DNA from: Dongia deserti | GTDB taxonomy: Bacteria > Pseudomonadota > Alphaproteobacteria > Dongiales > Dongiaceae | DNA length: 64,000 nucleotides | Direction: 5' to 3' | Assembly (NCBI RefSeq): GCF_003574735.1 | Contig: NZ_QORW01000007.1 | Span: 248,001 to 312,000 of the forward strand | In this document: one piece after another, positions 25,994 to 39,669 of the stretch | How positions within the stretch are numbered: the stretch's first letter is position 1 | Layout: the number at the start of each line of letters is the position of its first letter | Translations under genes and position numbers: made by a program | Notes under the pieces: generated by a model | What the model saw: only the letters and a program-made list of their open reading frames with translations | The model's database searches: none | Told to the model about the DNA's origin: nothing

Positions 25994-26314
25994 ATGCCCC
26001 CCAACTTCGACGATAAGCTGACGATCAACGACCATGGATGTCTAACACCTAAAGGCCCCCTGGGGCTCGCCGCCGATGAGACGGCGTTGAGGCTCGATAT
26101 TTGGATCTTCCAGGATCGCGCCGCCTGCATGGGCTTCCTACTCAACCCCACGGGGGCTACGTGGACGATAAACTCGGACCCCCATGAAGATCACTTTGGA
26201 AACCCGTTCCAGCCCGGTGCGGCGATCGGGATGGGGTTGTTGGTCAAAAAAAATACCGCGGGACAGGCTATCGTGGAGCAGTGGAATAGACCTATTACCC
26301 TGGTTGGCAAGTAA
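25994..26314 (+). CDS. small hypothetical protein
   Basis: 106 residues, with an almost ideal ribosome site (GGAGGTGAT) before ATG 25994. It is soluble and beta-rich by appearance, with GATWTINSDPHEDHFG and QPGAAIGMGLLVKKN; no signal peptide and no family I recognise. It lies between the cyclase gene and a region of remnants, with lower GC than its surroundings. The good start signal and clean stop argue that it is expressed. It may be a target or partner of the upstream cyclase/ATPase, or part of an imported segment. Confidence 0.6.
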   Translation: MPPNFDDKLTINDHGCLTPKGPLGLAADETALRLDIWIFQDRAACMGFLLNPTGATWTINSDPHEDHFGNPFQPGAAIGMGLLVKKNTAGQAIVEQWNRPITLVGK

Positions 26315-26355
26315 AGTCGGTCCAGACCACCAGACGCGGGGTCCGAACTGAAGAA

Positions 26356-27165
26356 TCAGTTGATGTCGGCGTACGTGATCGCGTCGGAAGCGGGGCGATC
26401 GACAGTGCGCAGGGTGCCGCCTGACTGCGCCACCCAGCCGAGCGCCCGCCACTCCGCCCGAATCTTCGCCACATCCTCGCACGTCGTGCCGACGAAATCG
26501 GCTAGATCGGCTGTGAGATGGGCACACCGCGAAGAGCGGTGCCGACGTTGCTGCCGGTAAGACCGACTTCGATTCTCACACCGTCGATTTGCGCAAGAAG
26601 GTAGACGCGGTGTGGATCGACACGCAGCGCCCCAATGGTCCGAACGACAAATCGCCGCTTTTAGAAGCTTTTTATGTTGCGCCCATGTTGCGTCGAAAAC
26701 GCCGTCTCGGAGGCTCTCATTCGCCTCGATCTGTTCGCGCTGGTCGACTGCGACCGCCAGCATCAGCCAGCGCGCTCCTTGCGGTGCCGGGAATTGGATG
26801 CGGCGCAGCGCCACGCGCAGGGTCGACTTCTGCGGGCCGGACACATCGGCTGCAGCGATATCCGAGTGGGATCCGTCCTCCGGTTCATCAGGCAGATCGA
26901 GCTCCTGGTCCCACAGCGAGCGCGAGCGCAGTATCTGCGCCGTTCAGGATCCGCGATCTGCCAATAAAGGCCGCCATACGGCTGGTCGAAGCGCGGGTCG
27001 GCCGGTTCACCGTCGAGATCTACGCCGCCGGCGTTGTCAAACACGATCAGACCGGCGAGTTGCCGCACACCACCAGCTCGGCCAGATCGTGCGCGATCTC
27101 GCCGCGCGATATCCGCATTTGCTGTCGCCGCGCTGGCCCGAGCCCCGCTGGGCGCATGGCAAGGC
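26356..27165 (-). pseudogene. mosaic remnant: sensor histidine kinase periplasmic domain and unidentified tail
   Basis: The minus strand at 27090-26900 reads DGEPADPRFDQPYGGLYWQI. After a shift it continues LRSRSLWDQELDLPDEPEDG, and then VALRRIQFPAPQGARWLMLA, the sensor part of PhoQ-like two-component kinases. No HisKA or ATPase follows. Downstream pieces in alternating frames (LRVDPHRVYLLAQIDGVRIE; LTADLADFVGTTCEDVAKI) look like other gene fragments, the last resembling a Crp-type helix-turn-helix. At least three frameshifts are needed, so nothing functional is encoded. Confidence 0.5.
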
Positions 27166-27857
27166 AACGCGCCACCTGTGGCTGGAAGGCGAGATCCTCA
27201 GTTGGCTCGGCGCCTTGGGCGGCAGGCTGGCGGCGCGCAAGGGCATTGGCCTCCCCGAGCAATACAGGGCCTTGCACCGCCTTGCTTTCGATTATCGGCT
27301 GGAGCCGCGCGCGCCTACTACCTGCAGGAACTGCATCGCGCGCCGCTGGACCTGACCGCGCCGCCGGTGCTGGGCCGCTACGAGACGAAGAACTGGCTGT
27401 TCAAGGCGCTGAATCGGTATCGCCGACGCCTGCGCGGGGACTAACCGCCTTATCGCAGCTTAGGCGACAAGAGGGAGTTCGCCCAGCATTGCGCCGCGCT
27501 TGGCGTGCCGACGCCACCCGTGCTGCTGAGCGCGTCGGATGGCGTCGTCAGCTGGCATGCGACGAGGGCTGAGCTCGATCGCGATCTGTTCGCGAAGCTG
27601 CAGCGCAGCAAGGGCGCACGGAAAACCGTCACGCTGCGACGAGTCAGCAACTTGGTTTCCGCGATTCCAACGGCCGCCATCATACGCTAAGGCAAGTGAT
27701 GCGGAAGCTGGCTGAACGATCACGCCCCGACAAGCTGATCGTGCAGCCGTGCATCGCCAACCACCCACTCCTATCCGACGTGGCCGACGACTCCCTGGCC
27801 GTCGTGCGGGTCGTCACCTGTCTGGATCAGCATGACCGGCCGGTCGTTACCCAGGGC
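27080..27857 (+). pseudogene. ATP-grasp-like protein remnant, multiple frameshifts
   Basis: Successive frames read RYPHLLSPRWPEPRWAHG, WLEGEILSWLGALGGRLAAR, YYLQELHRAPLDLTAPPVLG, then KREFAQHCAALGVPTPPVLL, and finally RPDKLIVQPCIANHPLLSD with VVRVVTCLDQ. The order (substrate entry, KREF start of the ATP-binding part, LIVQP, VVRVVT) matches sugar-transfer-associated ATP-grasp proteins. Three or more frame changes and internal stops separate the parts. The 3' end was replaced by a group II intron fragment at about 27858. Confidence 0.55.
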
Positions 27858-28190
27858 ATGCACGATCTGATCGCGCAGACCGGAGCGTGGGTGTACAGCG
27901 TGCTCAAGGGGCACCTGAACTACTTCGCCGTCTCGGGCAACGACCCGAGCCTGTGGTGGTTCTTCAACCAGGTGAAATGGCACTGGCTACGCTCGCTCCG
28001 GCGGCGCAGTCAGCGGGCCTACATCAACTGGGAGAGATACATCCGGCTCGTTGACCGCTTCTTGCCGCCAATCAGGATATTGCACCCGTTACGCTATCAC
28101 CGCTTCGACGCCAGAACCCGAGGGAGGAGCCCGGTGCGTTAGCAGCGCACGCCGGGATCTGCGCGGGGGGCGGCCGGCGACGGTCGTCTC
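27858..28190 (+). mobile_element. group II intron 3' remnant (maturase C-terminus and domain V-like sequence)
   Basis: From 27858 the frame reads MHDLIAQTGAWV, LKGHLNYFAV, LRRRSQRAYINWERY and FLPPIRILHP, ending TRGRSPVR at 28142. This is the diagnostic C-terminus of group II intron-encoded reverse transcriptase/maturases. The bases after the stop (CACGCCGGGATCTGCGCGGG) resemble the 3' half of intron domain V. The reverse-transcriptase motifs are missing, so only the 3' end is left. Nothing recognisable follows in 28191-28496 except the promoter region of the next gene. Confidence 0.75.
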
Positions 28191-28496
28191 TACCGCGACC
28201 TTTCCTTGTGTGCCAGGCAGGCTTCCGAGGGCGTGCCTTCATACAGAATGAGGATCACACCTTGTAGTGTCGAAGTTGCCGAATATTGAGTCGCAACTCA
28301 ACTGGCCTGAATCTGGGTGGATTGTGCCAAAAGACGAACCAGATCAACGCAGTCGTGCATAGCGCTGCGATTCCATGGAGCGGAATGTTTCACGCCCGCC
28401 CGCAGCTGAATAGGACCATTGATCTATCCGCCGCATGCCATCATTATTTGAGTGCTGCGAGGTCATTAACCTGCGGCTTGGGGAGGGGCATTTCCC

Positions 28497-30281
28497 ATGG
28501 ACAGCGCAGGAAACGCCGAGACCGGATTGGACACGGCTCTCGTTCTGGAGCAGTTGCAGCGTATCATCGACAGCAAGGATTTTGATGCGTCCGAGCGCAA
28601 TCGGCGCTTCCTTCGATATGTAGTGGAGGAAATGCTCGCCGGACGCGGTGAGCGGATCAAAGCGTACAATATCGCCACGTCTGTGTTCGGTCGCGATGAG
28701 AGCTTTGATCCACAATCGGATCCGATCGTCCGGATTGAAGCAAGCCGCTTGCGGCGATCGCTCGATCGCTATTACCTGACCGCTGGTCGCGATGACGTCA
28801 TTCGGATCACGATCCCGAAAGGCTCCTATGCTCCGAGCGTGGAAGGATCTGTCGAGGAGGTACCGCGGGATTCAGCCACGCCGACGCATGAAGTGCCGGG
28901 AGGACAGGCACCAGCGAATGAGGTTTCACGCAAGCCGTCTATGACTATCGCCGCCGCGGCGGGCTTAGCTGTACTTGCCGTGATGGTGTCTGGGGTCCTG
29001 TGGGCTACCGGATATATCCCGCAGCCCGCCGATTCGGTTCAGGCTGAGTCGTCTCGCCGCGGGCCCGCGATACTGGTCGCCCCGTTCGAGAACGACGGCG
29101 GTTCGCACCAGCAGAGTGAATTCGCACGTGGCTTCACGCGAGAAGTCATCACGGGCCTGACCCGTTTCAACGATCTGTTCGTCTTCGGGCCGGAAACAAG
29201 CTTCCTCTATAATGGAGGTACAGATATCTCGAAGATCGCCACGGAGTTGGGCGTTGATTTCATCCTTACCGGTGGCGTGACGACGACACCGACCAACTTC
29301 CGCATTACCACCTCGCTGCTGGATGCCAACAACGGTCAATATGTGTGGTCAGATCGATTCGTCGGCGACCTTGCCGCTGTCGATGTCCACGCTGTGCGGG
29401 ACAAGATTGCCGACCAGGTAATCCAAAAGCTGGCGCAACCCTATGGCGTGATCTTCAACAAAAAGGCAAGGGAGATCGAAGGCAAGCCGGCGGAATCCAT
29501 GACATCCTACGAATGCGTCCTGCGCTTCTATCAGTATTGGCGTTCCTATCGAGTGGAACTCCATGAACCAGTTCGCGAATGTCTCGAACGCACAGTCACC
29601 ACTGATCAAAGCTACGCGGACGCCTATGCAAGTCTGGCCATCGTGTACGTCGATGCCTATCGCTTCAACTTCGGCAGGGAATCACTCTCCTTCGATCCGA
29701 TGGTGCGGGCGCATGAACTGGCGCAGCGCGCCATCGAACTGGCACCCGATTCCTCCTTCTCCTATCACGCCCTGCACCTTGTCTACTGGTTGATGAACGA
29801 AGTCGATCTGAGCTTAGCCGCCGGTGAGCGTGGCCTGCAGCTCAACCCCAACAACAGCAGTCTAATGGCCGACCTCGGCCTGCGCTATGGAGACAGAACC
29901 CAATGGGACAAGGGCCTGCCGCTGCTTGAAGAGGCCTATGCTCGCAATCCGGGCCAGCCGGGCCAGTACCGGATTGCATTCGTCCTCAAGCATTATGTCG
30001 AAGGCGACTATGAAGAAGCACTTGCCCAGGCAAAGCAACTCGATGCTCCCAACGTCGCAATCGCGTATGTGGCACTCGCCATGTGCTACGGCCAGCTCGG
30101 GCGCGCCGAAGAGGCGAAGGCCGCCGTGGCGCAGATCCTGGCCATCGACCCCACCTACGGGGCTCGTGCGCTCGATGATCTCAGGATGCGCAACGTCCAC
30201 GAAGACTACATCCCGCTGATACTGGACGGTTTGGCCAAGGCGGGAATGGTGATACCTGGATACCCGCGTGATGCTTCCTAG
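28497..30281 (+). CDS. membrane protein with N-terminal winged-helix-like, TolB-like and TPR regions
   Basis: 594 residues; GGGGAGGGG lies eight bases before the ATG. Residues 15-115 resemble the cytoplasmic region found in many proteins annotated as adenylate cyclase/TPR (NRRFLRYVVEEML, then DPIVRIEASRLRRSLDRYY). A single membrane helix spans about 150-172. A TolB-N-like module follows (ILVAPFEN, LGVDFILTGGV, about 190-320), then TPR repeats to the end. No cyclase catalytic motifs are present. It likely senses or scaffolds on the periplasmic side and may regulate transcription through the N-terminal part. It opens the exported-protein/sulfatase cluster. Confidence 0.75.
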   Translation: MDSAGNAETGLDTALVLEQLQRIIDSKDFDASERNRRFLRYVVEEMLAGRGERIKAYNIATSVFGRDESFDPQSDPIVRIEASRLRRSLDRYYLTAGRDDVIRITIPKGSYAPSVEGSVEEVPRDSATPTHEVPGGQAPANEVSRKPSMTIAAAAGLAVLAVMVSGVLWATGYIPQPADSVQAESSRRGPAILVAPFENDGGSHQQSEFARGFTREVITGLTRFNDLFVFGPETSFLYNGGTDISKIATELGVDFILTGGVTTTPTNFRITTSLLDANNGQYVWSDRFVGDLAAVDVHAVRDKIADQVIQKLAQPYGVIFNKKAREIEGKPAESMTSYECVLRFYQYWRSYRVELHEPVRECLERTVTTDQSYADAYASLAIVYVDAYRFNFGRESLSFDPMVRAHELAQRAIELAPDSSFSYHALHLVYWLMNEVDLSLAAGERGLQLNPNNSSLMADLGLRYGDRTQWDKGLPLLEEAYARNPGQPGQYRIAFVLKHYVEGDYEEALAQAKQLDAPNVAIAYVALAMCYGQLGRAEEAKAAVAQILAIDPTYGARALDDLRMRNVHEDYIPLILDGLAKAGMVIPGYPRDAS

Positions 30282-30486
30282 ACAGGCTGTGGCAGAGCGT
30301 GCGCACCCGGTTTCTTAACGTTGCTTAAGACGCAAAGCGGTGTGTTTGAGGCAGAGTTGCCGCGATCCCTTGCCGTCCTGTTTGTCGATGGCGCTCTCAA
30401 AGAATGACGTTCCATAGCGTACTGATGCCTTGCGTTCATGAGGACGAGGCGAATCTTCCATGACATCCGTGGGTTACTGAGGCGCC

Positions 30487-30499
30487 CGTTACCGTAACG
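30487..30499. promoter_or_regulatory. 13-base palindrome upstream of the envelope genes
   Basis: CGTTAC-C-GTAACG is a perfect dyad about 95 bases before the probable start of the next gene, in a 311-base intergenic stretch (30282-30592) with no coding signal. It could be an operator for the run of exported proteins downstream. Confidence 0.25.
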
Positions 30500-30592
30500 T
30501 GCTTCCCTTCGCCGTGCGTGCGACCTCAAGCTGCTGGGTGCCGGCATCGCTGGATTGACCAGCAATCGGGGCATGCGGAGGTGGTCCGCGAC

Positions 30593-30856
30593 TTGTCGAA
30601 CAGTCCCCCATACCTGGCGCTGGTTGTTCGTCGGTTCCCCGATCGCGCCAACGCTGTGGCGCGATTGATGGCAACCAGCGAGCAGTTCCAATCCCTGTGC
30701 GAGGACTACGAGCTGGCGGTCAACACCCTCCAGGGCCTTGAAGAACGGAACCGCCTGGAGGACGTCCAAAGGATCATGGAATACCGCGTGTTGATTGCGG
30801 ATTTGGAACGCGAGCTGGAAGCGTGCCTGGGGGAAAGACCAAGTGAACGGCATTAA
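30593..30856 (+). CDS. small coiled-coil protein (YdcH/DUF465-like)
   Basis: 87 residues from TTG 30593, chosen because GGAGGTGG lies nine bases upstream; a GTG at 30518 is in frame but its extra residues look non-coding. The sequence is almost fully helical (ALVVRRFPDRANAVARLM, then CEDYELAVNTLQGLEERN and EYRVLIADLERELEACL). It resembles DUF465/YdcH-like small proteins but is not an exact match. Its end overlaps the start of the outer-membrane-like gene by 14 bases, suggesting translational coupling. Confidence 0.6.
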   Translation: MSNSPPYLALVVRRFPDRANAVARLMATSEQFQSLCEDYELAVNTLQGLEERNRLEDVQRIMEYRVLIADLERELEACLGERPSERH

Positions 30857-31649
30857 TCACAAGCGCGGAACCCCACGGCGGGCAGCCGCAATCCTCCTGG
30901 CCCTAACGGGAGCGATTGCGGCGGCCACTCCCGCCTGGCCGGAGAACCCAAGGTCGTCGCTTGCGAATGACGACTGGTCGCTGAGTATCTCACCCTATGT
31001 CTGGGGCGCCGGGATGGAAGGCAGCATCGCCTCGTTCCCCGGCGCACTGGCTGCCGACGTCGACGTCAGCTTCAACGACATCCTTGATCACCTTGATCTG
31101 GCGGGCATGGCCATCGTCCAGCTGCGCTATCAGCGCTTCGCCGCCTACATGGATCTGATCTACACGTCCGTCAGCGCCGACCAGGAGACGCCGCTCGGCA
31201 TCCTGTTCGACGATGTCGAGCTGGAGAACGAAATCTTCATTGGCACCTTCGGGGGCGCATATCGCGCAATCGAAACCGAACACGCGACGTTGGATCTGCT
31301 TGCCGGGGTGCGTGTCTGGTCTGTCGATACCGTGCTCAAGCTAGAAGGCGGCGTGCTGCAGGACCAGGAGTTCGAGCACGGCGAGAACTGGATCGACCCG
31401 ATCATCGGTCTTCATGGCCATTATCAGTTCGAGAACGGCATCTTCCTGACCAGCCTGTCCCAGGTCGGCGGGTTCGGAGTCAGTTCCGACCTCACCTGGG
31501 ACAGCTTCGCGGGCATCGGCTACCGCTTCAACGCCACGGTATCGGCGATCGCAGGATACCGGCACCTCGAGGTCGACTACGAAAACGATGGTTTCATCTT
31601 CGATGTCGAGATGTCAGGCCCCGTGATTGGCATGACGATCCGTCTATGA
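30843..31649 (+). CDS. outer-membrane beta-barrel-like exported protein
   Basis: 268 residues from GTG 30843. A basic stretch (HKRGTPRR) and hydrophobic core ending PAWP form a signal peptide. The mature chain alternates aromatic and polar residues in beta strands (WSLSISPYVWGAGMEG, FAAYMDLIYTSV, TFGGAYRAIE, ATVSAIAGYRHLEV) and ends in GPVIGMTIRL, with a hydrophobic penultimate pattern. This is the look of an eight- to twelve-strand outer-membrane barrel. No specific family is recognised. It overlaps the small coiled-coil gene and precedes a Tat-signal protein by 16 bases. Confidence 0.7.
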   Translation: MNGINHKRGTPRRAAAILLALTGAIAAATPAWPENPRSSLANDDWSLSISPYVWGAGMEGSIASFPGALAADVDVSFNDILDHLDLAGMAIVQLRYQRFAAYMDLIYTSVSADQETPLGILFDDVELENEIFIGTFGGAYRAIETEHATLDLLAGVRVWSVDTVLKLEGGVLQDQEFEHGENWIDPIIGLHGHYQFENGIFLTSLSQVGGFGVSSDLTWDSFAGIGYRFNATVSAIAGYRHLEVDYENDGFIFDVEMSGPVIGMTIRL

Positions 31650-31665
31650 GCTCTCGGGAGGGATC

Positions 31666-32121
31666 ATGACGCACGACGTGATCACGAGACGGCAGTTTTC
31701 GCTGAGCCTGCTCGCGGGCATCGGTGTGGGTCTGGTCCCGGTCATTGCCGCTGCCGACTACGTCGAATCCGGCACGGTCACCCTCGAACAGGTGCAGATC
31801 GCCTTCATCGGCAGCGGAAACCTGGGTGGCGGCACGCTGATATTCGGCGGAAGGAAGTACGGTTTCACCGTGGGCGGCCTGGGCGTTGGCGGGATCGGCG
31901 TCTCGAAGATGGAAGCGCAGGGGACTGTCTATAATCTGCGCAGTCCGGCCGATTTCTCGGGCGGCTACTTCCAGGCTCGCTATGGATTGGCCGTGGGGCA
32001 GCTGAGCGCGGGCGAGCTGTGGCTCGAGAATGCGCACGGCGTCGCAATCCATCTCAAGGCCGAGCGGACAGGCCTCGCGCTCTCCCTGGGCGGCGATGCG
32101 GTCTACATCGATCTGGATTGA
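31666..32121 (+). CDS. exported protein with probable Tat signal
   Basis: 151 residues; GGGAGG precedes the ATG. The N-terminus ITRRQFSLSLLAGIGVG has the twin-arginine pattern (S/T-R-R-x-F), with cleavage likely after IAAA. The mature part is glycine-rich and beta-like (QIAFIGSGNLGGGTLIFGG, KYGFTVGGLGVGGIGVS), ending GGDAVYIDLD. I do not recognise a named family. The C-terminal half (GELWLENAHGVAIHLKAE) suggests a small ligand-free beta sandwich. It is the third gene of the envelope run, 12 bases before the next exported protein. Confidence 0.7.
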   Translation: MTHDVITRRQFSLSLLAGIGVGLVPVIAAADYVESGTVTLEQVQIAFIGSGNLGGGTLIFGGRKYGFTVGGLGVGGIGVSKMEAQGTVYNLRSPADFSGGYFQARYGLAVGQLSAGELWLENAHGVAIHLKAERTGLALSLGGDAVYIDLD

Positions 32122-32133
32122 GGGGAGAACATC

Positions 32134-32685
32134 ATGATGCGCACCAATCGGGCGGCTATCGCACTTGCTCTGCTCGGCGCAGCGCTTGGAGCTTCGTCGA
32201 CAGTTCTGGCGGACCAGGAGCAGACGATCAAGGCCTTCGCCGCCTGGCAGGGCCGCGGCCAGATGTACGAAACAGGCGTCAACCGCGCAACCTTCGTCGG
32301 TTCGTTCTCCGGCATGATATTCGTCGAGACAGACAAGGGGCCGCTGGATTCCGGATTCATGATCTGCCCGGCAATCGTCGACGTGAATCTGTCCGATGCC
32401 ACGCAAGAGGGCAGAGGCCGCTGCACCATTTCGGCGAAAGATGGATCGCGCGCCTATGGCGAGATCACGTGCAAGGGCGTCCACCTGGTCGGCTGTGACG
32501 GTGACTTCACCTTCACCGGTGGAACGGATCGCTTCGCCGGAATTTCCGGTGGTGGGCCGATCACGATCCGCAGCGGTCTGCAGGAGTTCGCGGCGACCGG
32601 CGGGAATACCGTCCATGAATCGGCCGGCGGAATCATCTTTTGGCCGAAGCTGACCTACAAGCTCCCCGAAGCGCCGCAGCAATAG
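32134..32685 (+). CDS. exported protein of unknown function
   Basis: 183 residues with a classic signal peptide (RTNRAAIALALLGAALGAS, cleavage near LADQ); AGGGGAG lies upstream. The mature part contains a likely disulfide-bearing beta domain (four cysteines: MICPA, GRCTIS, ITCKG, VGCDG) and ends with WPKLTYKLPE. The pattern GDFTFTGGTDRFAGISGGG looks like a small lipocalin-like or allene-oxide-cyclase-like barrel, an impression only. It is followed eight bases later by the glycine-zipper gene on the same transcript. Confidence 0.65.
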   Translation: MMRTNRAAIALALLGAALGASSTVLADQEQTIKAFAAWQGRGQMYETGVNRATFVGSFSGMIFVETDKGPLDSGFMICPAIVDVNLSDATQEGRGRCTISAKDGSRAYGEITCKGVHLVGCDGDFTFTGGTDRFAGISGGGPITIRSGLQEFAATGGNTVHESAGGIIFWPKLTYKLPEAPQQ

Positions 32686-32693
32686 GTGCCACG

Positions 32694-33194
32694 ATGAAAC
32701 AACGCGTGAACAGGCGCAGGCCGATCGCGCTCCTGATTGTGGTTACTGCGTGCTCGATCGCCATCGGATCGCCGGCATGGCCGCAATCGGCGCCGATCAT
32801 TTATCCGAGTGCGGGCCAGTCCCTCGAGCAGCAATCCAGCGACGAAGCGGCGTGCCGTACCTGGGCGCAGCAGCAGACAGGCGTCTATCCCGGACAATCG
32901 GCACCCAACTACTACGGCAATCCGTACGCGCAACAAGGCGCGCCGGTGTTGGGCGGCGCCGCGCGCGGCGCTGCGCTCGGCGCGATCGGTGGTGCGATCG
33001 CCGGGGATGCTGGAGAAGGCGCGGCAATCGGTGCAGCCGTGGGCGGGACCGCAGGCCTGATGCGCCGCAACCAGCAGCGCCGGCAACAGGCCTACGCCAA
33101 CGAGCAAGCCATGACGCAGTACCAAGCCGATCTCGGCCGCTACAACCAAGCCTTCGCTGCCTGCATGCAGGGGCGCGGATATGTCGTCAGGTAG
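32694..33194 (+). CDS. glycine-zipper exported protein
   Basis: 166 residues from ATG 32694 (AGGTG six bases upstream). A signal peptide ends near PAWPQ. Mid-protein is a glycine-zipper hairpin (GGAARGAALGAIGGAIAGDA, then GAAIGAAVGGTAG) of the kind that inserts into or oligomerises on membranes (Gly-zipper/OmpA-like families). A QRR-rich helix and a conserved-looking tail NQAFAACMQGRGYVV follow, and the two cysteines (ACRTW and ACMQ) may bridge. This is typical of small envelope-stress proteins. It belongs to the same run as its neighbours. Confidence 0.75.
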   Translation: MKQRVNRRRPIALLIVVTACSIAIGSPAWPQSAPIIYPSAGQSLEQQSSDEAACRTWAQQQTGVYPGQSAPNYYGNPYAQQGAPVLGGAARGAALGAIGGAIAGDAGEGAAIGAAVGGTAGLMRRNQQRRQQAYANEQAMTQYQADLGRYNQAFAACMQGRGYVVR

Positions 33195-33237
33195 AGATTG
33201 AGGCAAGACATACGCGGCCTTGGAACAAGAGCGGCCC

Positions 33238-33300
33238 GTGACCCTGCCCTCGGGTCACCGCCGGTCCTCTTCCGATCGCCACCCCCAAGGCGATCGGAAG
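33238..33300 (+). terminator. two tandem hairpins
   Basis: GTGACCC/GGGTCAC (33238-33258) and, 10 bases on, CTTCCGATCGCC/GGCGATCGGAAG (33269-33300, perfect 12-bp stem, eight-base loop). They lie between the glycine-zipper gene and the lipoprotein gene. There is no T-run; they could attenuate transcription or stabilise the upstream mRNA. Confidence 0.4.
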
Positions 33301-33378
33301 CGGGCTGCCGATCAATGTGGATCGCCAGCCGCAAAGAGGGGCAACAGGCTGCAACGGGCATTTTGAAGGGAACTTGCC

Positions 33379-34086
33379 ATGAACATTACTCATTCTTCCG
33401 CCGCGTGGCTATTCATCGCTTTCGTCGTGTCCAGCTGCGCATCGACCGACGTGACCCAGCGCCAGCAATATCAGGGCGAGAAGCTTGCGCAGCCCGGCCG
33501 GGTCATCATTCATGACTTCACCGCCAACCCCGCCGACGTGCCGGCCGAATCGGCTTTCGCGGCTCAGAACGCCGTCGCGAACACCATCCCGACGGCGGAA
33601 CAACTCGCAGCGACCAGCAGGCTGGGTGCGGAGATCGCGCGGCAGGTTACGGCACAGCTGCGCGGTGCTGGCCTGCCGGCCGTGCAGGCAACGGGCCAAC
33701 CTGCACCTCAGGTCAATGACATCGCTATCAGGGGCTATTTCGTTTCGGCGGAAGAGGGCAGCGCCGCCAAGCGTATGCTGGTCGGATTCGGCTCCGGCAA
33801 TGCGGAATTGATGACCGCGGTCGAAGGGTTCCAGATGACACCACAGGGCCTGCGCTTGCTCGGCAGCGGCCATGTCGAATCCGGCGGTAACAAGGCGCCG
33901 GGTGTGATTCTGCCGCTTGCGGTCATGGCGGCCACTGCAAACCCGATCGGGCTGGCGGTCGCCGGGACAGTGAAGGTGGCCGGCGAAGCGACGGGCTCAT
34001 CCACCATCGAGGGCGCGGCCAAGAGGACCGCGGACGAGATTTCAGAACAGTTGATAGACGCAGCCGAGCGGCAGGGCTGGCTGTGA
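33379..34086 (+). CDS. DUF4410 lipoprotein
   Basis: 235 residues. The N-terminus IAFVVSSCAS holds a lipobox-like cysteine after a hydrophobic stretch. The body is typical of DUF4410: VIIHDFTANPADVP, then a helix with LGAEIARQVTAQLRGAGLPA, IRGYFVSAEEGSAAKRMLVG, and a late region LAVMAATANPIGLAVAG, with DEISEQLIDAAERQGW at the end. DUF4410 lipoproteins sit in the outer-membrane inner leaflet; their role is not established. GAAGGGAA supports the start. It precedes a second lipoprotein, the patatin. Confidence 0.85.
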   Translation: MNITHSSAAWLFIAFVVSSCASTDVTQRQQYQGEKLAQPGRVIIHDFTANPADVPAESAFAAQNAVANTIPTAEQLAATSRLGAEIARQVTAQLRGAGLPAVQATGQPAPQVNDIAIRGYFVSAEEGSAAKRMLVGFGSGNAELMTAVEGFQMTPQGLRLLGSGHVESGGNKAPGVILPLAVMAATANPIGLAVAGTVKVAGEATGSSTIEGAAKRTADEISEQLIDAAERQGWL

Positions 34087-34143
34087 GGCTGCGCGGCTGA
34101 GCGTGAGCTTCTGCAACAAAGATCTGCGAGATGGAGGGCTAGG

Positions 34144-35376
34144 TTGGCACGTATCGGACTACGAAACATAAGCGTACTGGCAGGAGCTGCAATGCTGTGC
34201 GCCTGCAGCACGCTCACGCGCGAACCCGCTGCCGAGCCGCCGATCTCGCGGGCGACTGTGGCTGACATCGATTCGAGCACGATCCGCTATCTGCCGTTCG
34301 AGGATGTCTCGGGTTTCCAACGGGACATTGCCGAGGCTTTCCGCACGGAAACGGAAGACAGCTACCACGTGGGCCCCAGTGGCGAGCGCATCTACAACTA
34401 TCTCGCCGTGTCGGGCGGCGGTTCGGACGGAGCCTTCGGCGCTGGTCTGCTGAACGGCTGGACAGAAGCAGGCGGCCGTCCGAAGTTCAAGATCGTGACC
34501 GGTGTCAGCACCGGATCCCTGATCGCTCCCTTTGCCTTCCTCGGGCCAGATTATGACGACGAGCTGAAGGCGGCATACACCACGATCGATGCGAGCAGGA
34601 TCTTCATTGCGCGTGGCCTGCTGCCGCTGCTCTGGTCGGAAGCCGTGGCTTCTACGGAACCGCTCCAGGACCTGATCGGCACATACGTCGACGAAAAGCT
34701 CCTGGATGCTATCGCAGCCGAACACGCGAAGGGTCGTCGGCTCTATGTCGCCTCCACCAACCTTGACGCGGAGCAGCCCGTCATATGGGACATGGGCGCC
34801 ATCGCGGCCAGTGGCAAACCTGATCGTTTGGCGCTGTTCCGCCAGGCGCTCCTGGCTTCCGCATCGATCCCTTCGATCTTTCCTCCGGTACTGATCGATG
34901 TATCGGCCGACGGCAAGAAGCATCAGGAGATGCATGTCGATGGCGGCGTCTTCTTCCAGGCCTTTTTCATCGGCGCCGCGACCGACCTGCCGGCGAACAT
35001 TCGCGCCGCTCATCCGGAGTTCCAGGGCAAAGTCCAGCAGAACCTCTATGTCATCCGGAACGGCTGGCTGACCCCCAGCTTCGAGCCGGTGGACCGCGCG
35101 CTCACCAGCATAACCATGCGGGCGATCCACTCGATGCTCAAGGTGTCCGGCATCAACGACCTCTGGCGTCTCTACCTCGGCGCAAAGGACGATGAGGTTG
35201 CCTTTCACTACGTAGCCATACCGGCCGCCTATGTGCCATCGACGACCGACCAATTCAACCAGGCTGAGATGAACCGGGAGTTCGATTTCGGACGCCAAAT
35301 GGCGCTCGACGGGATCGAGTGGCAAGTGACGCCGCCGGGCTACACGGCGCCTCAAAGCCAGATCACGCAGCAATAA
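34144..35376 (+). CDS. patatin-like phospholipase lipoprotein
   Basis: 410 residues from TTG 34144 with GGAGGG upstream. The lipobox LCAC puts the lipidated Cys at 21. The patatin core has the oxyanion loop SGGGSDGAFGAGLL, the nucleophile elbow GVSTG (Ser122), and the catalytic dyad Asp in VDGGVF. It is therefore a serine acyl hydrolase anchored on the periplasmic face. Substrates are likely phospholipids or lipoproteins. Its position directly upstream of the FGE/sulfatase pair suggests joint remodelling of envelope or imported lipids, possibly sulfolipids; that link is inference. Confidence 0.88.
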   Translation: MARIGLRNISVLAGAAMLCACSTLTREPAAEPPISRATVADIDSSTIRYLPFEDVSGFQRDIAEAFRTETEDSYHVGPSGERIYNYLAVSGGGSDGAFGAGLLNGWTEAGGRPKFKIVTGVSTGSLIAPFAFLGPDYDDELKAAYTTIDASRIFIARGLLPLLWSEAVASTEPLQDLIGTYVDEKLLDAIAAEHAKGRRLYVASTNLDAEQPVIWDMGAIAASGKPDRLALFRQALLASASIPSIFPPVLIDVSADGKKHQEMHVDGGVFFQAFFIGAATDLPANIRAAHPEFQGKVQQNLYVIRNGWLTPSFEPVDRALTSITMRAIHSMLKVSGINDLWRLYLGAKDDEVAFHYVAIPAAYVPSTTDQFNQAEMNREFDFGRQMALDGIEWQVTPPGYTAPQSQITQQ

Positions 35377-35401
35377 GCGCAGGTTCGACAGGAGCAGATC
35401 G

Positions 35402-36382
35402 ATGAGGCTGCTGAAAGGGCAAGAGCTGCGTGAGCCTGCACGAGAAGGCATGGTATTTGTGCGCGGTGGAACCTTCTTGATGGGTTCAGATCGACACTAC
35501 CCAGAAGAAGGGCCAGTGCATCGCGTCCATGTGGACGGCTTTCTTATCGACGAGACGCCCGTCACGAATGCACAGTTCTCGGAGTTCGTTTCGGCCACCG
35601 GGTATCGCACATTCGCGGAATCTCCGCCCAATCCAAGAGACTATCCAGGCATTCTGCCGGAGATGGTGTATGCGGGGTCACTGGTATTCCAGTCGCCGGA
35701 TGGAAGTGTCGATCTTACCGACTGGGCTCAATGGTGGACATTTCTGAAGGGCGCGTGCTGGCGTCATCCATACGGTCCGAACAGCGACATCCATGGGTTG
35801 GACGAGCATCCCGTCGTACATGTTTGCTACCATGACGCGCTCGCCTATGCCCGGTGGAGCGGCAAGGATCTTCCGACAGAAGCAGAATGGGAGTTCGCAG
35901 CTAGAGGCGGACTCGATGAAGCAGAGTTTGCCTGGGGCTCGGATTTTACGCCGGCGGGCCGCCACATGGCCAACACCTGGCAGGGGAGCTTTCCGACGGT
36001 GAACGAGGCGCGAGACGGGTACGTACGCACCTCATCCGTCAAGGTCTTTCCACCGAACGGATACGCCATCTACGACATGATCGGGAACGTCTGGGAATGG
36101 ACGTCCGACTGGTTCGCTCCGCGGCACGAGGCGAACGCACAGAAAGCCTGCTGTATCCCGAAAAACCCTCACGGCGGTCGCGAAACCGACAGCTATGACC
36201 CGTGCCAGCCCGAGATCAGGATTCCACGCAAGGTCTTAAAAGGCGGCTCGCACCTCTGCGCGCCCAACTACTGCCGCCGCTACCGTCCCGCAGCGAGGCA
36301 CGCGGAGCCCGTGGATACCTCGACGTGTCATGTAGGATTCAGATGTGTTGTAAGGCCAGGAGGATCAGATGAAGTCGCTTAG
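35402..36382 (+). CDS. formylglycine-generating enzyme (SUMF1 family)
   Basis: 326 residues; CAGGAGC precedes ATG 35402. FGE-fold landmarks: FVRGGTFLMGSD near the start, DETPVTNAQFSEFV, LPTEAEWEFAARGG, and the active-site stretch LKGGSHLCAPNYCRRYRP, with the copper-binding cysteine pair five apart, then HVGFRCV. The enzyme oxidises the sulfatase Cys to formylglycine. There is no signal peptide, so it acts in the cytoplasm before export. The stop overlaps the sulfatase start by 14 bases, which couples enzyme and substrate. All key residues are present, so it should be active. Confidence 0.93.
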   Translation: MRLLKGQELREPAREGMVFVRGGTFLMGSDRHYPEEGPVHRVHVDGFLIDETPVTNAQFSEFVSATGYRTFAESPPNPRDYPGILPEMVYAGSLVFQSPDGSVDLTDWAQWWTFLKGACWRHPYGPNSDIHGLDEHPVVHVCYHDALAYARWSGKDLPTEAEWEFAARGGLDEAEFAWGSDFTPAGRHMANTWQGSFPTVNEARDGYVRTSSVKVFPPNGYAIYDMIGNVWEWTSDWFAPRHEANAQKACCIPKNPHGGRETDSYDPCQPEIRIPRKVLKGGSHLCAPNYCRRYRPAARHAEPVDTSTCHVGFRCVVRPGGSDEVA

Positions 36383-38747
36383 GCATTTGAGGGCACGCTG
36401 GTTGGGAGCGAGCACGATGGTCCTGCTGTTGTGTGCTCCCGCAATCGCCCAAGAATCGCTGCCTTTTCCGCCGAAGTCCTCGGGGAGCAAGGCTGGTCCG
36501 ACGATCGCAGAGTCGACCTATAATCCGTTGCCGGCGCAGTCGCACCTGCCGGCCGATGCCCCGAACATTCTCGTCATCATGCTCGACGATGTTGGTCCGG
36601 CGCTGCCGGACACTTTTGGCGGCGTGATCGAAACACCCACGTTGAGCCGTCTTGCGGAGGAAGGAGTCTCCTACAATCGCTTCCACAATGCCGCTATGTG
36701 CTCCCCCACGCGGGCGGCTTTGCTCACGGGGCGTAATCATCACCGCGTCGGGAACGGCCAGATCGCGGAACTTGCAAACGATTGGGACGGGTATACCGGC
36801 CGTATTCCGCGCACATCTGCGACCGTCGCAAAGGTTCTTGGCTATTACGGCTACGCGACCGCGGCATTCGGGAAATGGCACAACACCCCAGCGAATGAAA
36901 CGACGGCTATCGGCCCCTACACCGACTGGCCGGCGGGGGAAGGAATCGGCTTCGACTACTTCTATGGCTTTCTTGCCGGTGAATCGTCGCAGTGGGAGCC
37001 GGCCGTCGTCGAGAACACGGTCCGCCTCGACCCTTCCCACGGAAGAGAAGGCTACCATTTTACCGAGGACATGACAGACAAGGCCGTCGCTTGGATGAAG
37101 CAGGTTCGCGCACTGACGCCGGATCGGCCATTCTTCATGTATTGGGCTCCCGGCGCATCCCATGGTCCGCATCACATCTTCAAGGAGTGGGCCGACAAGT
37201 ACAAAGGCAAGTTCGATGATGGCTGGGATTCCATGCGCGAACGCATCTTCGCCCATCAGAAGGAACTCGGATGGATCCCGGAGAACACAGAACTGACGCC
37301 CCGTCCGGATACCCTGGCGGCATGGCAGGACATTCCGGAGGACGAGAAGCCGTTACAGCGGCGCCTCATGGAAGTGTTCGCAGGCTACACCGAACACGCG
37401 GATACGCAAGCAGGTCGTCTGCTGGACGCCCTTGATGAGCTTGGCATGCGCGACAATACGCTCATCTTCTATGTCTGGGGCGATAACGGATCCAGCGCGG
37501 AAGGCCAGAATGGCACGATCAGCGAGCTTCTGGCACAGAACGGCATCCGTACGGAGATCAAGGACCATATCCGTGCGATGAATGAGCTGGGAGGTCTGGA
37601 CGTACTCGGCTCACCGAAAGCCGACAATATGTACCATGCCGGTTGGGCTTGGGCCGGTTCGACACCACATCGGTCCACAAAGCTGGTCGCAGCGCATTTC
37701 GGCGGGACGCGCACACCGCTCGTGGTCTCCTGGCCCAGCAAGATCAAGCCCGACACGACGCCGCGTTCCCAGTTTCATCATGTCAACGACATCGTGCCGA
37801 CGATCTACGACGTCCTGGATATCCAGCCGCCAAAGCTCGTCGACGGCATAACCCAGGATCCTCTTGATGGCGTTAGCATGACCTACACCTTCGACTCCGC
37901 CCGCGCGCCGGGGCAGAAGACGGAGCAGTATTTCGAGATCATGGGTAGCCGCGCCCACTACAAGGATGAATGGATAGCGTCGGTATTTGGCCCCCGGATA
38001 CCGTGGAAGGCAGGCCTCGATCCGGCGATCTTCAAATGGTCGCCGAACAATGACGTTTGGGAGCTGCACGATCTCAGCAAGGACTATTCTCAAGCCACCG
38101 ACGTCGCGGTCGATCACCCTGATAAAGTTGAGGAGCTCAGGAAAGCCTTCGGCGTCAGCGCGGAAGCGAACAAGGTGTACCCTGTCGGTGGCGGGCTGTG
38201 GTCTGCCGTCCTCCATCCGGAGGATGCGCCATCGAATCCGGCGACAGAGTTCGAGTTCACGCAAGAGGTCGTCGGCGTTCCGGAGTTCACCGCGCCAAAA
38301 GTCGGAGCGCGGAGCAATCTGGTTACCATCGAGGCGGAACTGAAGTCGGACTCGGAAGGTGTGCTTTACGCCCTGGGCGCCTTTTCGGGAGGTGTCGCCT
38401 TGTGGGTGGATAAGGGTAGGCTGACCTACGAGTACAATCTGTTTGAGGTCGAACGGACGCGTCTTGAATCATCCGACCCGTTGCCCAGCGGCAAGGTCAA
38501 GATAGAGGTCGAGACACGCAAGGCCAACAACGATCACGCGGCGCCGCTTGACGTCGTCGTCCGCGTTGATGGCAAGGAAGTGGCGAAAGGTCGCGTGCCA
38601 CGCTCGGCTCCGCTCACCTTTACCGCCAATGACGCTTTCGATGTGGGCAGAGACAGCTACTCGCCAGTCTCGCTCGCATATTTCGACCGAAAGCCGTTTG
38701 CGTTCAATGGCGAGATTCAACGCCTGAAAGTCCAGTATTTGAAGTGA
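36369..38747 (+). CDS. arylsulfatase (Cys-type, exported)
   Basis: 792 residues. Signal peptide MVLLLCAPAIAQ. The alkaline-phosphatase-like sulfatase domain has the metal-binding LDDVG (Asp73/74) and the modification motif CSPTR with Cys111, the residue converted to formylglycine by the upstream enzyme. TGRNHHRVG and the later GDNGSSAEGQ are also family-typical. The C-terminal 200 residues form an extra beta domain, usual in large bacterial arylsulfatases that act on aromatic or steroid sulfates. The start overlaps the FGE gene by 14 bases. It is likely periplasmic. Confidence 0.95.
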   Translation: MKSLRHLRARWLGASTMVLLLCAPAIAQESLPFPPKSSGSKAGPTIAESTYNPLPAQSHLPADAPNILVIMLDDVGPALPDTFGGVIETPTLSRLAEEGVSYNRFHNAAMCSPTRAALLTGRNHHRVGNGQIAELANDWDGYTGRIPRTSATVAKVLGYYGYATAAFGKWHNTPANETTAIGPYTDWPAGEGIGFDYFYGFLAGESSQWEPAVVENTVRLDPSHGREGYHFTEDMTDKAVAWMKQVRALTPDRPFFMYWAPGASHGPHHIFKEWADKYKGKFDDGWDSMRERIFAHQKELGWIPENTELTPRPDTLAAWQDIPEDEKPLQRRLMEVFAGYTEHADTQAGRLLDALDELGMRDNTLIFYVWGDNGSSAEGQNGTISELLAQNGIRTEIKDHIRAMNELGGLDVLGSPKADNMYHAGWAWAGSTPHRSTKLVAAHFGGTRTPLVVSWPSKIKPDTTPRSQFHHVNDIVPTIYDVLDIQPPKLVDGITQDPLDGVSMTYTFDSARAPGQKTEQYFEIMGSRAHYKDEWIASVFGPRIPWKAGLDPAIFKWSPNNDVWELHDLSKDYSQATDVAVDHPDKVEELRKAFGVSAEANKVYPVGGGLWSAVLHPEDAPSNPATEFEFTQEVVGVPEFTAPKVGARSNLVTIEAELKSDSEGVLYALGAFSGGVALWVDKGRLTYEYNLFEVERTRLESSDPLPSGKVKIEVETRKANNDHAAPLDVVVRVDGKEVAKGRVPRSAPLTFTANDAFDVGRDSYSPVSLAYFDRKPFAFNGEIQRLKVQYLK

Positions 38748-38830
38748 GCGGCAGAAGCGGTGATCGCTATGCGTGGCCGATCCCACGCCGGCTCAGCACT
38801 ACCAGGCGATCTTATTCCGGGAGGAATTGT

Positions 38831-39620
38831 ATGATGTCGAAGACTTTTGGGCGGACGGCGCTTGCGGCAGTTGCCGTTGCGATCCTGTCCTTAGGCCTGA
38901 TGCCGGGCATTGCCGCGGCAGAGGGCACGGTCATTTCGTTGCCAAGCGCAGATCAGGAGGAAATCGAAAAGCTCCTTGGCAAGGGCGTTGTCGGCGACGC
39001 GCAGCCGGCCATGCCGCTAGGCTCGCCTGAGAGCTATCTGCTGCCCAAGGGCTCTTCGATGAGCTACCAGGTCATCGAGAAGGACAAGAAGAGGGCGGAA
39101 GCCCATAAGCTGGAGGACACCACTGACGCATCTTTGGCGCCGGGCTGGCACTATTCGGTGGAGAAGGCGGGCGCTGCCTTCTTCCAGAAGTCGTCCGACG
39201 GCAGCCTGCATACGGTGGCCGAGCAGGATCTCGGCAATAAGGTGCTATCTCGCTTCGTGCCTGGCGAGCCGATGATCGTCCAGGGTCTAAAGCCTGGAGA
39301 GAGCCGCACGTCAACCCTGCAGGTCTCGGTCTACGATTTGTCCGATCTCAAAAAGGTGACGCATTCGGGATCGCTCGATGTGACCTACACATATATCGGC
39401 GCCTATCGCCGTGACCGTTCCAGCGGGCACCTACGACGCCGTGCTCATCCGCTGGACCTATGACGGTAAGATCGGCCCGGCGAGCATCAAGGATTCGCAA
39501 TACCGGTTTCTTGCCCCGAACGCCGGCATGGTCGCCATGGCACAGATCCGCAGCATCTCCGCCATGCTGATCTATAACGACCACACGAAGCACGGAAAGG
39601 TCCTGCAACAGATCCACTGA
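38831..39620 (+). pseudogene. exported protein of unknown function, frameshifted near its 3' end
   Basis: GGAGGAATTGT precedes ATG 38831; a signal peptide ends near GIAAAEG. The frame runs through SYQVIEKDKKRAEAHKLED and the repeated-looking GLKPGESRTSTLQVSVYDL to a stop at 39463. The homologous continuation, TVPAGTYDAVLIRWTYDGKI to NDHTKHGKVLQQIH, is one frame over from 39411 to 39620. One extra C at about 39407 explains it. The family is unknown to me. It is the last member of the sulfatase run, 83 bases after the arylsulfatase. If the shift is a sequencing error the intact protein would have about 262 residues. Confidence 0.7.
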
Positions 39621-39669
39621 CATCGTTCGCAACGAGATTGCGCAGGGGTCGGAGTGCGAGGGAACATGA

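Follow-up and report, generated by a model that had tools for sequence, protein, structure and literature searches.

The block at 28.5-39.6 kb of the window (the whole 64,000-nucleotide stretch of Dongia deserti DNA analysed here, from the 6.1-Mb genome of this alphaproteobacterium) is a real, cohesive envelope operon, and its control probably lies with the membrane regulator encoded next to it, acting through a conserved operator. On balance we favour the reading that Dongia-type bacteria have a family of regulator-controlled envelope operons, of which this block is one version and in which each copy would add a different cargo to a constant core; in the present copy the cargo is a formylglycine-generating enzyme (FGE), a sulfatase and an exported protein of the DUF3108 type.

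All the genes named in an earlier sequence-only reading of this DNA are present at their positions on the plus strand (Table 1), with family E-values of 1.7e-17 for DUF4410, 1.7e-21 for patatin, 1.1e-79 for the FGE, 3.7e-58 for the sulfatase and 1.3e-08 for the Gly-zipper protein. That reading had counted ten genes, but there are eleven, because a further small gene, g1b, lies before the outer-membrane (OM) barrel gene. Its description of the products as almost all exported or membrane-anchored applies to most of them but not to the FGE, which has no signal peptide and is thus predicted to be cytosolic rather than exported. In the congener G002, g1 to g10 are all kept in the same order with about 68-93% protein identity, in line with the conserved arrangement that had been proposed. 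Nucleotide similarity between the window and G002 is first seen at 28538 and last at 39622, and the flanking genes of the window on both sides have no counterpart beside the block in G002. Because the similarity ends near these two positions and the flanks are unrelated on both sides, the block is a cohesive unit, and the limits first assigned to it (28497-39620) are almost exact.

Table 1. Features of the envelope block, in positions of the window.
Feature	Positions	Strand	Basis
g1, regulator candidate, 594 aa	28497..30281	+	TPR and weak TolB match, one TM
operator-like motif TTACCGTAACGTGCTTC	30489..30505	+	gap between g1 and g1b
g1b, small conserved protein	30518..30856 (start 30518 or 30581)	+	conserved in 8 modules
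g2, outer-membrane beta-barrel-type protein	30843..31649	+	weak TIGR04219 match, below cut-off
g3, exported small beta-barrel, distant EipA relative	31666..32121	+	family matches, predicted fold
g4, exported 8-strand barrel, allene oxide cyclase/dirigent-like	32134..32685	+	predicted fold
g5, exported Gly-zipper protein	32694..33194	+	Gly-zipper match
g6, DUF4410 protein	33379..34086	+	DUF4410 match; lipobox-like VSSC
g7, patatin-like lipoprotein	34144..35376	+	patatin match; lipobox-like LCAC
g8, formylglycine-generating enzyme	35402..36382	+	FGE domain; Cys286/Cys291
g9, exported type I sulfatase, AtsA-like	36369..38747	+	PF00884; CSPTR from residue 111
g10, exported DUF3108-like protein	38831..about 39620	+	frameshifted near 39400

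The DNA upstream of g1 (26000-28200) contains only short, fragment-like ORFs and appears degraded. A group II intron remnant at 27.0-28.2 kb was considered and found unsupported, with only a weak match to a sugar-transfer ATP-grasp family and no Rfam match there; the Rfam search of the window from 24 to 44 kb returned zero matches. In a scan for sigma-70 promoters and terminators, matches were no commoner than in shuffled sequences. A locus for the use of sulfated polysaccharides was also rejected, as no SusC/SusD, glycoside hydrolase or lyase match was found among the block genes. Our literature search for patatin together with FGE and arylsulfatase, or for DUF1254 with arylsulfatase, found nothing relevant.

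We searched for relatives of the block with patatin, g3 and g4 as queries and then read the neighbourhoods. The order g1b-(OM barrel)-g3-g4-g5-patatin recurred, with g1 alongside and either divergent or codirectional. Copies of this core are present in the window, at three places in G002, in a paralogous module of Dongia deserti itself (G000:C9), and in G003, G001 and Dongia mobilis (G011), the last without patatin. We take g1b, g3, g4 and g5 as the constant core, joined in most copies by patatin and sometimes by the OM barrel or DUF4410. What stands behind the core is exchanged between copies: the FGE, the sulfatase and g10 in the window and in G002:C11; two DUF1254/DUF1214 proteins in G000:C9 and, by similarity, in G002:C9; and a small protein with membrane fusion protein (MFP) and RND pump genes in G003 and Dongia mobilis. 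The FGE-sulfatase pair, around which the sequence-only reading had built the system, is not part of the conserved core, since the core stands without it in the paralogous module of Dongia deserti and in most of the copies found in relatives. Loci of the block type holding g3 and g4 were also found in an uncultured Dongia and in several unplaced MAGs as well as in Dongia mobilis, and the g3-g4 pair occurs more widely than the Dongia family. It adjoins MFP/RND genes in five loci (L042, L096, L097, L107 and L142), and it adjoins patatin at two loci (L101 and L141) of a second family, labelled f66. In f66 (L101, L137/L138, L141 and L142, in G200 and G467), clusters are made up of changing combinations of patatin, g3, g4, the OM barrel, the sulfatase, DUF2092 and a multihaem cytochrome-TPR protein. 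In many f66 genomes (L103, L104, L147-L152), g3, mostly with g4, lies beside SDR and other metabolic genes in a conserved neighbourhood.

Of the core products, the small beta-barrels would be exported and the lipolytic lipoprotein anchored in a membrane, and together they may bind lipids or other amphiphiles at the envelope and trim them. The g3 protein is predicted to form a small beta-barrel (pLDDT 79) whose best fold matches, to Rhodococcus Vap proteins, are weak (best E 3.4e-3). Three of 35 members of the g3 family have a distant match to EipA (PF06577, DUF1134; best 1.1e-6); the g3 of the window has none at the gathering score, and no canonical EipA was found in the Dongia deserti genome. 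EipA of Brucella is a periplasmic barrel that is linked to LPS, affects envelope integrity and has been suggested to interact with lipids (PMC10787603). The g3 family resembles it as an exported small beta-barrel and in these few distant sequence matches, but differs in its setting: g4 is the usual partner of g3, and the eipA gene of Brucella is found close to ctrA/chpT (PMC10787603). For the g4 protein, whose alignment has four invariant Cys, an 8-strand barrel is predicted (pLDDT 87), and its matches to the allene oxide cyclase/dirigent fold are borderline (probability up to 1.00, E 5e-4 or weaker, TM about 0.3-0.4). No credible match came from searching PDB sequences with profiles of g3 and g4. 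The predicted folds of both proteins suggest the binding of hydrophobic ligands. Among the other proteins of the block, g1b has no match in Pfam, and relatives of g2 also lie near sulfatases (L101, L118, L119, L137 and L173).

The catalytic motifs of the patatin-like lipoprotein are intact, with a GVSTG nucleophile elbow from residue 120 and the Asp of a DGG motif. An anti-phage (CBASS-type) patatin was considered and rejected: the scores against NF041079 and NF053870 are 30.6 and 19.3 bits, versus cut-offs of 200 and 400, and there is no nucleotidyltransferase match among the block genes. Relatives of g6 also occur in loci that bear the motif described below (L041, L198 and L201). The reading frame of g10 is shifted by one base, and its homologue in G002 (L032) is one intact ORF; the shift could be either an assembly error or real.

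The sulfatase and the FGE also have intact catalytic motifs. The g9 protein scores 197.7 bits against PF00884 (cut-off 25) and has metal and active-site motifs besides CSPTR, so that by sequence it is of type I (FGly), like AtsA of Pseudomonas (PDB 1hdh), and its neighbour g8 has both active-site cysteines of an FGE, which align with the GGSxLC...YC motif of 6s07. The g9 protein differs from AtsA in its length of 792 aa with an extra C-terminal part and in being embedded in a patatin/EipA-like operon. In the favoured reading, the cytosolic FGE would turn Cys111 into formylglycine while the sulfatase is still nascent, and after export the sulfatase would strip sulfate from a compound reaching the periplasm; sulfatase and patatin would act on linked substrates. 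No other FGE was found in the Dongia deserti genome, which holds at least two further sulfatases that are apparently of the Cys type; with a sole FGE copy and these other sulfatases, g8 is unlikely to be dedicated to g9 and probably serves the others too.

The sequence-only reading had proposed a dedicated system in which an envelope lipid or an imported one, here taken as a single sulfolipid, loses both its sulfate and its acyl groups. The close packing of the three genes speaks for it, with a gap of 25 bp between patatin and FGE, an overlap of 14 bp between the FGE and sulfatase ORFs, and an order that is kept in G002. So does the neighbourhood of the sulfatase in another family, where a close relative of g9 (71-73%) shares a 10-20 kb neighbourhood with an OM barrel, patatin, g3 and g4 (G200, L101; G467, L137/L138). 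However, most core copies with patatin have no sulfatase, G370 (L114) has sulfatase relatives away from any core, and the sole FGE copy does not fit a dedicated pair. A lipid-desulfation pathway of this kind is possible and is not required by the data, and we consider it quite unlikely.

Relatives of the sulfatase at about 55% identity or more were found only in G000, G002, G200, G467, G370 and G432 among the genomes searched and the loci read (the search left out G001 and G003; the contig of G432 is too short to judge the neighbourhood). In the tree, the sulfatase of the window falls within a clade that is otherwise of f66 (100/99), and the best FGE matches outside the genus, in the 12 genomes searched, are also from f66; the placement of the sulfatase fits transfer between families and is not proof of it. 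G200, a nearly complete genome, has the Cys-type sulfatase (L101) but no strong FGE was found in it. A contig end of G003 brings together DUF4410, an FGE, an OM barrel (61% to g2), a relative of g10 and a different sulfatase, and the patatin core is absent in view up to that end. Because the sulfatase/FGE link recurs apart from the patatin core in this way, the block of the window looks like a join of two units. One could go further and take the FGE and sulfatase as an independent unit for scavenging sulfur from aryl or alkyl sulfates that landed in the operon and has only the promoter in common with it, which would agree with the f66 affinities of both genes and with related FGEs adjoining other sulfatases elsewhere. 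We regard this as rather unlikely, since the closest f66 sulfatases also lie near the OM barrel, patatin, g3 and g4, and G002 keeps the pair inside the block.

For the control of the core-plus-cargo operon, the candidate is g1, which adjoins the module in the window and at L032, L036, L039, L042, L043 and L097. It has a conserved N-terminal domain, one transmembrane segment at about 150-168 (a single hydrophobic 19-mer at 150, with none at the N-terminus; the orientation is predicted) and a predicted periplasmic part that is TolB-like and carries TPRs. Membrane one-component regulators of the ToxR/CadC type have a cytosolic DNA-binding domain, one transmembrane segment and a periplasmic sensor. 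The predicted order in g1 is the same, and a candidate site lies upstream of the operon that adjoins it, but its periplasmic part is TolB-like with TPRs, and its N-terminal domain has no Pfam family. The 'wHTH' label earlier given to this domain is a sequence-based assignment, as searches of Pfam and the PDB gave no match supporting it.

The candidate site is a 17-bp motif with the pattern TTACNGTAACGTRCYTC. In the window it stands at 30489-30505 as TTACCGTAACGTGCTTC, for which 0.05 matches would be expected in the window at three or fewer mismatches. This sequence or near variants of it occur in the g1-g1b gap of every one of the eight modules that have a g1 homologue close by, versus none (at three or fewer mismatches) of the six family g3-g4 loci without g1 nearby (L095, L096, two in L105, L106 and L107). 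A simple Fisher test gives 3.3e-4 for this association, a value that ignores kinship and the choice of the motif from the positive set: the motif was discovered by reading the same eight gaps, and the modules are not independent observations because they are related by descent. An independent genome-wide check gave 17 near-exact matches to TTACNGTAACGTNCYNC in 17 family genomes versus 1 for the reversed pattern; the Dongia deserti genome has three matches, all beside g1 genes. We infer from these data that the motif is a binding site of g1 or its paralogues; as a regulator, g1 would span the membrane once, with its DNA-binding-like domain in the cytosol and its TolB/TPR sensor in the periplasm, and act on this operator in front of the operon. 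The proposed control by the membrane TPR protein thus appears likely from the conserved operator-like motif, with the binding itself, like the direction of the regulation, being what we infer.

The motif could instead be bound by another regulator, or be a promoter element, with g1 a mere neighbour. The lack of any family or structure match for DNA binding by g1 agrees with this, as do three sites without g1 in the surrounding stretches read (G003:C1:327371, G003:C5:247666 and G009:C27:121289). However, the association of motif and g1 at the g3-g4 loci, the several g1 paralogues interspersed with motif sites in G002:C30, and the form of the motif, an imperfect palindrome that is not followed by a conserved -10-like element, argue against it, and we find a role without g1 improbable. 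Searching the literature for the motif strings returned unrelated papers only.

Further sites, in part looser matches, are found before DUF3300-DUF2950-DUF1254, porin, DUF4410, PPK2, AI-2E transporter and DUF3302-HlyD genes, and some of the genes at sites outside the modules stand upstream of arginine-deiminase genes. The sites at L041, L199, L200 and L201 (G002:C30 and G009:C27) lie before porin, PPK2, AI-2E and DUF3302-HlyD genes, some of which lead into DUF4410, arginine-deiminase or DUF3300-DUF2950 genes; they form a candidate regulon. DUF3300-DUF2950 is a conserved gene pair with no function assigned (PMC4653623). In Dongia deserti the pair adjoins the paralogous module, with the same motif before it, and is linked there to a candidate operator and regulator. 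These sites also bear on a further explanation, defence against amphiphiles or xenobiotics, in which toxic amphiphiles would be captured by the core and then be made harmless or expelled by cargo enzymes or RND pumps. The five g3-g4 loci beside MFP/RND pump genes favour it, and the predicted barrel folds would fit hydrophobic ligands, but the motif also stands before PPK2, porin and arginine-deiminase-linked genes, which points to a broader stress or energy response. We hold such a defence to be somewhat unlikely.

Tentatively, and at just short of even chances, we propose that the core-plus-cargo operons belong to an undescribed regulon, in which a new class of membrane-spanning TolB/TPR transcription factors would recognise TTACNGTAACGTRCYTC and control modular EipA-like/AOC-like/patatin operons with exchangeable cargo (FGE-sulfatase, DUF1254/1214 or RND pumps) as well as DUF3300/2950, porin, arginine-deiminase and polyphosphate kinase genes, as a periplasm-sensing stress response. 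One candidate regulator and one short motif link DUF4410, DUF1254/1214, DUF2950, DUF3300, DUF3302, the EipA-like and AOC-like barrels and the lipoprotein patatins, all widespread, uncharacterised envelope families, whose function becomes directly testable because they are tied to this one regulator and motif. The block of Dongia deserti also gives an example of the way in which an envelope operon of this kind can take up a sulfatase.
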